Assembly (NCBI GenBank): GCA_017505635.1
Contig: JAFVOU010000039.1
Location: forward strand, 1-64,000
Direction of reading: 5' to 3'
Length of the DNA stretch: 64,000 nt
Source of the DNA: Oscillospiraceae bacterium
GTDB lineage: Bacteria; Bacillota; Clostridia; Oscillospirales; Ruminococcaceae
The number at the start of each line of letters is the position of its first letter. Position 1 is the stretch's first letter. Made by a program: the position numbers and the translations under genes. Shown in pieces: positions 32,654 to 33,107 of this stretch. The notes under the pieces are model-generated. The model ran no database searches and was not told the DNA's origin. It saw only the letters and a list, made by a program, of their open reading frames with translations.

Positions 32654-32858
32654 ACTGTATAACAAAAAAGCCGCTCAATAGAGCGGCTTTTTGATGGCGG
32701 AGAGAGAGGGATTCGCCGTCTGCACGGCTATCGCCCTGCATACTGACTGGCTTTCGCTGCCGCTCAAGCTCTTTTGGCTGAAAACAGTGTACCACACTGT
32801 TTTCTTTACGCCAAAACCCTCACGGGTTCGAATCCCGTTTCATCAAAAAACCACTTTT
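32654..32858 (-). repeat. tRNA-Ser-derived structured element (partial tRNA tail, hairpins, T-arm mimic)
   Basis: The left end repeats the end of the neighbouring tRNA-Ser plus its downstream terminator. Bases 32695-32715 are identical to the last 21 bases of the tRNA-Ser gene including CCA. Beyond the T-loop the sequence diverges into hairpin GCCGT-CTGC-ACGGC (32715-32728) and a long nested hairpin: TTTTGGC / GCCAAAA, with GAAAACAGTGT-ACC-ACACTGTTTTC inside (32772-32816). It then reaches a T-arm mimic ACGGG-TTCGAAT-CCCGT (32822-32838). The outer ends TTTTTGATG and CATCAAAAA (32688-32696 and 32841-32849) are complementary. No protein is encoded. It could be a tRNA-derived repeat, a miniature mobile element, or a disrupted second tRNA-Ser copy. 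Confidence 0.6.
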
Positions 32859-32865
32859 ACTGTAT

Positions 32866-32896
32866 AACAAAAAACCACCTCTGTTGAGGTGGTTTT
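32866..32896 (-). terminator. Terminator of tRNA-Ser
   Basis: A stem CCACCTC / GAGGTGG with loop TGTT, flanked by A and T runs, lies directly after the tRNA. A sister hairpin GCCGCTC-AATA-GAGCGGC in the same context lies at 32670-32688, with stem changes that preserve pairing. Confidence 0.85.
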
Positions 32897-32899
32897 TGA

Positions 32900-32989
32900 T
32901 GGCGGAGAGAGAGGGATTCGAACCCTCGGTGCGTGTTACCGCACACCCGCGTTCCAGGCGAGCACCTTCGACCACTCAGACATCTCTCC
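32900..32989 (-). tRNA. tRNA-Ser (GGA)
   Basis: The minus strand folds as a class II tRNA. The acceptor is GGAGAGA / TCTCTCC with discriminator G and encoded CCA, the anticodon stem-loop holds GGA (CTCGC-CTGGAAC-GCGGG), the variable arm TGTGCGGTAACACGCA is long as expected for Ser, and the T-arm is GAGGG-TTCGAAT-CCCTC. A strong terminator follows. Its last 21 bases recur in the structured element just downstream. Confidence 0.93.
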
Positions 32990-33107
32990 GTGTTCGACAG
33001 CTTTATTATTATATACTGTAAAAATCAAATTGTCAATAGCAAATTTCAAAAAAATTCAACAAATTTATGTTTTTGTAAAATTTTTTTAATCATATAGTTT
33101 TTACCAG

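Follow-up and report, generated by a model that had tools for sequence, protein, structure and literature searches.

The closest described systems are the RtT repeats of the E. coli K-12 tyrT/tyrV genes (also named rttR and tpr; Rfam RF00391), tandem repeats in which each unit consists of a tRNA-Tyr end, a spacer, GGGGAAGGATGAGAA (an inverted T-arm), a small loop, AAGGTTCGA (the 5' half of the T-arm), GC-rich hairpins and AATCCTTCCCCCACCACCA, with the tRNA 3' end copied through CCA. The repeat family described here follows the same plan, having an inverted T-arm, a core and a copy of the tRNA 3' end downstream of a tRNA. The P3 hairpins of the two are alike (CTCGAGCGCCAGCGAGAG resembles CTTGAGCGGCAGCGAAAG), while the cores are otherwise unrelated; the units of the new family, unlike those of RtT, are each bounded by terminator-like hairpins, and RtT lies behind tRNA-Tyr genes only (in the K-12 stretch read), whereas the new family lies behind at least 14 tRNA specificities. 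The RF00391 model gave no match at E<=10 on five clostridial loci, while the E. coli units score 133-138 bits. The new family is built like RtT and, by analogy, may work like it, and it stands outside RF00391.

Tyrosine recombinases that target tRNA genes leave traces such as a break in the T-loop, duplication of the entire gene end, a replaced terminator and the use of rpsI as a second target. Islands and prophages integrated at tRNA genes share with the new element the T-loop break, the duplicated 3' end which spares the tRNA, the new terminator and the use of the rpsI 3' end; the element differs from them in measuring about 190 bp per unit, in having no integrase and in carrying an extra, inverted copy of the site. 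Integron attC sites and the attP hairpin of phage CTX are folded single strands, variable in the middle and closed by inverted and direct half-sites, and the new element likewise has a predicted single-strand hairpin closed by inverted half-sites (stem P0) and occurs in arrays of units. Unlike attC sites, its arms copy the host gene end and, on inspection, there is no GTTRRRY R-box, the right arm being GACGGC/GANTCCC; we know of no integron integrase nearby. As with MITEs and REP/BIME sequences, the element is small, non-coding, palindromic and multi-copy, but it is gene-end-specific, with a long duplication and locus-specific arms. A literature search found no description of such repeats, and the family is apparently undescribed.

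Layout of the locus behind tRNA-Ser(GGA)

The locus was identified in an Oscillospiraceae bacterium (assembly GCA_017505635.1), in the stretch of DNA analysed here and referred to as the window (contig JAFVOU010000039.1, positions 1-64,000); the functional direction of the element is the minus strand. On that strand, the tRNA-Ser(GGA) gene (32989-32900) is followed by terminator 1, a spacer containing a 14-nt inverted remnant of the tail, the inverted T-arm, the core, a second tRNA 3' end, terminator 2 and the start of an acyltransferase gene (PF01757). The GGGTT at the start of the core is a copy of the 5' half of the T-arm. Coordinates are given in Table 1.

Table 1. Features of the element and its target gene in the window
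Feature	Position	Strand	Basis or remark
tRNA-Ser (GGA), target gene	32900..32989	-	ARAGORN and Rfam; T-loop TTC/GAATCCC is the duplication break point
Terminator 1, CAAAAACCACCTCAACAGAGGTGGTTTTTTG, between tRNA and element	32868..32898	-	Sequence
Remnant, inverted copy of tRNA tail/terminator start, GTGGTTTTTTGATG, 14 nt	32841..32854	-	Sequence
Inverted T-arm GGGATTCGAACCC, reverse complement of local tRNA T-arm	32824..32836	-	Forms the left side of closing stem P0 and the 5' strand of hairpin P1
Structured core, about 108 nt, branched hairpins	32716..32823	-	Starts with GTGA loop and GGGTT, ends GACGG
P2b hairpin GAAAACAGTGTGGTACACTGTTTTC, most conserved module of the family	32780..32804	-	
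P3 hairpin GAGCTTGAGCGGCAGCGAAAGCC, similar to a hairpin of E. coli RtT	32749..32771	-	
P4 hairpin GTATGCAGGGCGATAGCCGTGCAGAC	32718..32743	-	
Direct copy of tRNA-Ser 3' end, CGAATCCCTCTCTCTCCGCCATCA, T-loop through CCA	32692..32715	-	Start pairs with inverted T-arm (P0)
Terminator 2, CAAAAAGCCGCTCTATTGAGCGGCTTTTTTG, compensatory variant of terminator 1	32663..32693	-	

The two 62-base units on which the original prediction was built are present where it placed them; they are identical at 53/62 positions, with a common stretch of 16 nt on the left side (ACTGTATAACAAAAAA) and one of 28 nt on the right (TTTTTGATGGCGGAGAGAGAGGGATTCG), a shared tail slightly longer than had been described. The hairpins noted inside these units also exist, their actual nature being that of intrinsic terminators behind each tRNA end. 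A supposed T-arm mimic (ACGGGTTCGAATCCCGT) was likewise found, beginning at 32822, and was identified as the T-arm of the local tRNA copied in inverted orientation; as this reverse complement pairs with the duplicated half of the T-arm, the proposal of a tRNA-mimicking RNA is unsupported as such.

The real tRNA-Ser(GGA) was the sole ARAGORN and Rfam call at the locus, with neither the core nor the tail scored as tRNA, and no family in Rfam 15 matched the element at the gathering score. An open reading frame at 32889-33089 of the window (plus strand; VFDGGERGIRTLG...) crosses the tRNA-Ser gene antisense and is probably spurious.

Copies of the element and their match to the local gene

When a 154-nt stretch of the locus was searched with BLAST, the source genome proved to contain many relatives, with E values as low as 6.5e-48. 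This genome has 11 full-length copies, as identified with a covariance model (R1), plus fragments, adjoining 9 of the 44 tRNA genes over the detection cut-off (Ser-GGA, Ser-CGA, Gln, Gly, Arg, Glu, Lys, Pro and Tyr, the Tyr copy being degenerate), with tandem pairs behind the Glu and Pro tRNAs. An inverted T-arm with 0-2 mismatches no more than 160 nt downstream was observed in this genome solely at the element-bearing tRNAs and at a solo remnant behind tRNA-Ser-GCT. Both the likeness of the locus to the other copies and the inverted T-arm are far beyond chance. The locus is therefore neither a single copy nor a decayed tRNA-Ser, but one of a multi-copy family next to different tRNAs, and the suggestion of a miniature mobile element targeting tRNA T-loops is well supported in outline by this family and its T-loop break.

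With the same model, the element was detected in 73 of 295 genomes (44 of 149 genera) in the order, and in 56 of 291 genomes (42 of 181 genera) in the class. Most fetched copies lie 43-75 nt behind a tRNA of one of at least 14 amino-acid specificities, and both ends match that local tRNA. Of the 84 copies fetched order-wide, 53 had a tRNA at a distance of up to 75 nt, and for a further 13, which are tandem units, the distance was up to 800 nt; many of the other copies come from short stretches or adjoin the end of a contig.

Nearly all tRNA-linked copies have a left arm that is reverse-complementary to the T-arm of the adjoining tRNA, and this local match extends to odd T-arms (GACCCC in Leu-TAG, GATCCCC in Ala and TTCAAAT in Ser). 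Across 41 distinct pairs, the match to the copy's own tRNA (12.7/15) exceeded all 2000 reassignments among tRNAs (mean 11.3). The right end passes into a duplicate of the tRNA 3' end, which extends from the T-loop to CCA, or approximately to the discriminator base where CCA is unencoded. The T-loop break point is constant over the class, and the direct duplication, of about 60 nt in a unit of about 190 bp, starts inside the gene, as in elements inserted by tyrosine recombinases. Over the 8 nt before CCA the tail copy is 96% identical to the tRNA, compared with 68% for the terminator stretch. The two terminators are near-identical in many loci; in the 27 loci where they are unrelated, the tail copy is still 93% identical over the same 8 nt, as if the downstream DNA had another source. 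At one locus (L126) the left arm has changed in step with the tail copy (GGACTC/GAGTCC) while the tRNA still reads GAATCC, so that the arm tracks its partner inside the element.

All 89 copies with a tRNA within 150 nt are in sense, while at the 3' end of rpsI the hairpin is antisense to the gene in five loci (L225, L228, L229, L253 and L284). Core orientation is thus fixed per target and opposite at rpsI, and the core need not be read in the sense of the gene. In three of the five rpsI loci the rpsI-end copy was matched in full, with a terminator beyond it and an inverted piece of the gene end across the core. The copy at L253 still codes QFSKR and a stop.

Congeneric genomes differed in what follows tRNA-Ser-GGA: seven carry the element, three a different core (type B) and two the tRNA and terminator alone. 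Type B (CCCTGAAAAGTTATCGGCGCGTAC...) is a second dispersed repeat (L151, L152, L153, L154 and L159-L183), found at tRNA ends and elsewhere in these genomes; at the tRNAs it occupies the same tail position, and its left end also has inverted local sequence. A tree of cores (47 rows) did not group them by their tRNA (20 minimal changes) or by their genome (25), which indicates that cores have been moved or exchanged between tRNAs with their ends kept local. Behind tRNA-Arg(CCG) in two congeneric genomes (L136 and L137), the segment after the tRNA is no plain terminator, and the layout of the element is unchanged.

Cores were also observed away from tRNAs at seven loci (L011, L056, L066, L069, L075, L080 and L081), closed by other inverted repeats within larger dispersed repeats. 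The most conserved module (CGTTAAGAAAACAGTYCRGTGRACTGTTTTYAG) has further matches in Bifidobacterium, Treponema, an alphaproteobacterial MAG and Lachnospiraceae. The copies in Bifidobacterium biavatii and B. goeldii (L226, L232, L267 and L290) lie inside other palindromic repeats away from tRNAs and suggest spread between phyla. There was no exact match to one form of the module in 2.9 million viral contigs, and carriage as phage cargo was rejected on this result.

Predicted fold and covariation

In an alignment of 29 copies (A2), 96.9% of cells in stems P0, P1, P2, P2b, P3 and P4 were paired. P0 joins the inverted T-arm to the tail copy, and P1 has the form ACCY-GNRA-RGGT, with a loop that is mostly GNRA-type. 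The core covaries strongly, with 18 pairs changed on both sides and 127 double-change cells against a shuffled mean of 42 (0/500 shuffles reached the observed value); slid controls collapsed.

On the tRNA-sense strand of the 84 order-wide copies, G.U outnumbered A.C mispairs by 125:26, and by 55:16 once the first eight pairs (P0) and a single closing pair rich in G.U are set aside. Given the strand symmetry of mutation, this excess suggests that the molecule which folds, be it RNA or single-stranded DNA, is the tRNA-sense strand. The signal is supportive but short of conclusive, as the alignment had been fitted to the model.

Candidate mechanisms

Each locus has the order gene, 3' end, terminator 1, inverted site copy, core, direct gene-end copy, terminator 2; both site copies agree with the local gene, pairing between the inverted and the direct copy closes a branched hairpin that covaries, and units form tandem arrays. 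The explanation we favour, with a probability of roughly 45%, is that the repeats make up one family, spread over the class, of small insertion elements that form hairpins, are non-autonomous, attach at tRNA or rpsI 3' ends and are recombined in trans. The attachment site would be the 3' end of a tRNA gene (the T-loop), or that of rpsI with the core reversed. A trans-acting site-specific recombinase, probably a tyrosine recombinase, would insert the element, duplicating the gene end and leaving the tRNA intact. Its substrate would probably be the folded single strand, with the inverted and direct sites paired and the core bulged out, which by analogy would work like an integron attC site or the CTX-phage attP hairpin. 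This explanation is favoured because the footprint resembles that of tyrosine recombinases and the inverted site copy recalls attC and attP. The main puzzle is the acquisition of local ends, as the tail of one tRNA carried in a cassette would damage a different tRNA on a move between targets.

Several observations weigh against insertion in trans. Neither a recombinase partner nor a longer autonomous version was found: the units, at about 190 bp, are too small for an integrase gene and contain none, and an autonomous version at two loci (L270 and L276) was rejected when their ORF lists contained no obvious integrase near the module. An RNA would account for the G.U excess and for the P1 loop, mostly of GNRA type, no less well than single-stranded DNA. 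Finally, plain tandem duplication would account for the many loci with two near-identical terminators.

The main rival, possible but less probable, is a putative RNA which by analogy with RtT would arise by read-through from the tRNA promoter and be freed by tRNA-processing enzymes as a branched molecule (P0-P4) with a tRNA-type 3' end. It would serve as a decoy or as a stable RNA in its own right, and selection at the RNA level would maintain the pairing of its ends. Besides the E. coli precedent, the strand-specific excess of G.U over A.C, the mostly GNRA-type loop with the strong covariation, the conservation of the tail copy to the discriminator or CCA and the sense orientation of every tRNA-linked copy all argue for such a product, as does the joint change of left arm and tail copy at L126 beside an unchanged GAATCC in the tRNA. 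It is harder to reconcile with the terminator-like hairpin between tRNA and element and behind each unit of an array, with rpsI copies antisense to the gene, with the ability of a different core to occupy the same tRNA, and with the copies away from tRNAs.

A broader form of the insertion-element explanation, which we regard as doubtful, would unite these repeats and E. coli RtT as a general set of cross-phylum, integron-like cassettes attached at the 3' end of a tRNA (or rpsI) gene, in which a trans-acting recombinase acts on a folded single strand with arms copied from the host gene end; all that each cassette brings would be a new gene end with its terminator. The tyrT repeats of E. coli have long seemed a local oddity; the same architecture, with another core, is now found at many tRNAs of gut bacteria, class-wide, and at rpsI, and the curiosity becomes a class of elements with testable rules (a local inverted arm, a T-loop break and a conserved hairpin). 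It raises the question of which enzyme or RNA process copies the end of a host gene both ways while sparing an essential gene.

That the element is an ordinary MITE- or REP-like palindromic repeat accumulating behind tRNAs, its tail duplicated by unequal recombination or replication slippage, is unlikely. The module does occur in other repeats away from tRNAs, and near-identical units form tandem arrays; against this, the inverted arm varies by locus in place of fixed terminal inverted repeats, the break falls at the T-loop throughout the class, and the duplication is about 60 nt rather than the short target-site duplication of a MITE.

A SINE-like retroelement is more improbable still. Here a reverse transcriptase would start on the 3' end of a tRNA or its precursor, stall or switch template in the modified T-loop and continue over the core RNA, and the chimeric cDNA would be inserted behind the tRNA. 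This would account for the right junction in the T-loop, the always-local tail and the sense-strand RNA signature, but there is no target-primed or poly-A-like signature, and the rpsI copies and the terminator duplication are left unexplained.

Finally, a second tRNA-Ser that has decayed or been scrambled, flanked by random DNA, and with it the description of the element as tRNA-Ser-derived, is refuted in spite of the 24 nt of tRNA-Ser end present, as no tRNA was called over the core or tail and many copies with the same conserved core, which is unrelated to tRNA, lie behind tRNAs of at least 14 specificities.

A Rep/integrase element beside the tRNA-Lys copies of the source genome (L100; C14:8800-13400) was considered as a helper and rejected, since the presence of its rolling-circle Rep family was not associated with that of the hairpin element (16 shared genomes, counted by hand from the two genome lists, against approximately 15 expected among 295). 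At this locus, tRNA-Lys and a copy of the element are followed by an insertion of about 3 kb carrying the rolling-circle Rep (PF23343) and a truncated tyrosine recombinase (PF00589), and on its far side lies the displaced 3' half of tRNA-Lys, from the anticodon loop on, with a second copy of the element.
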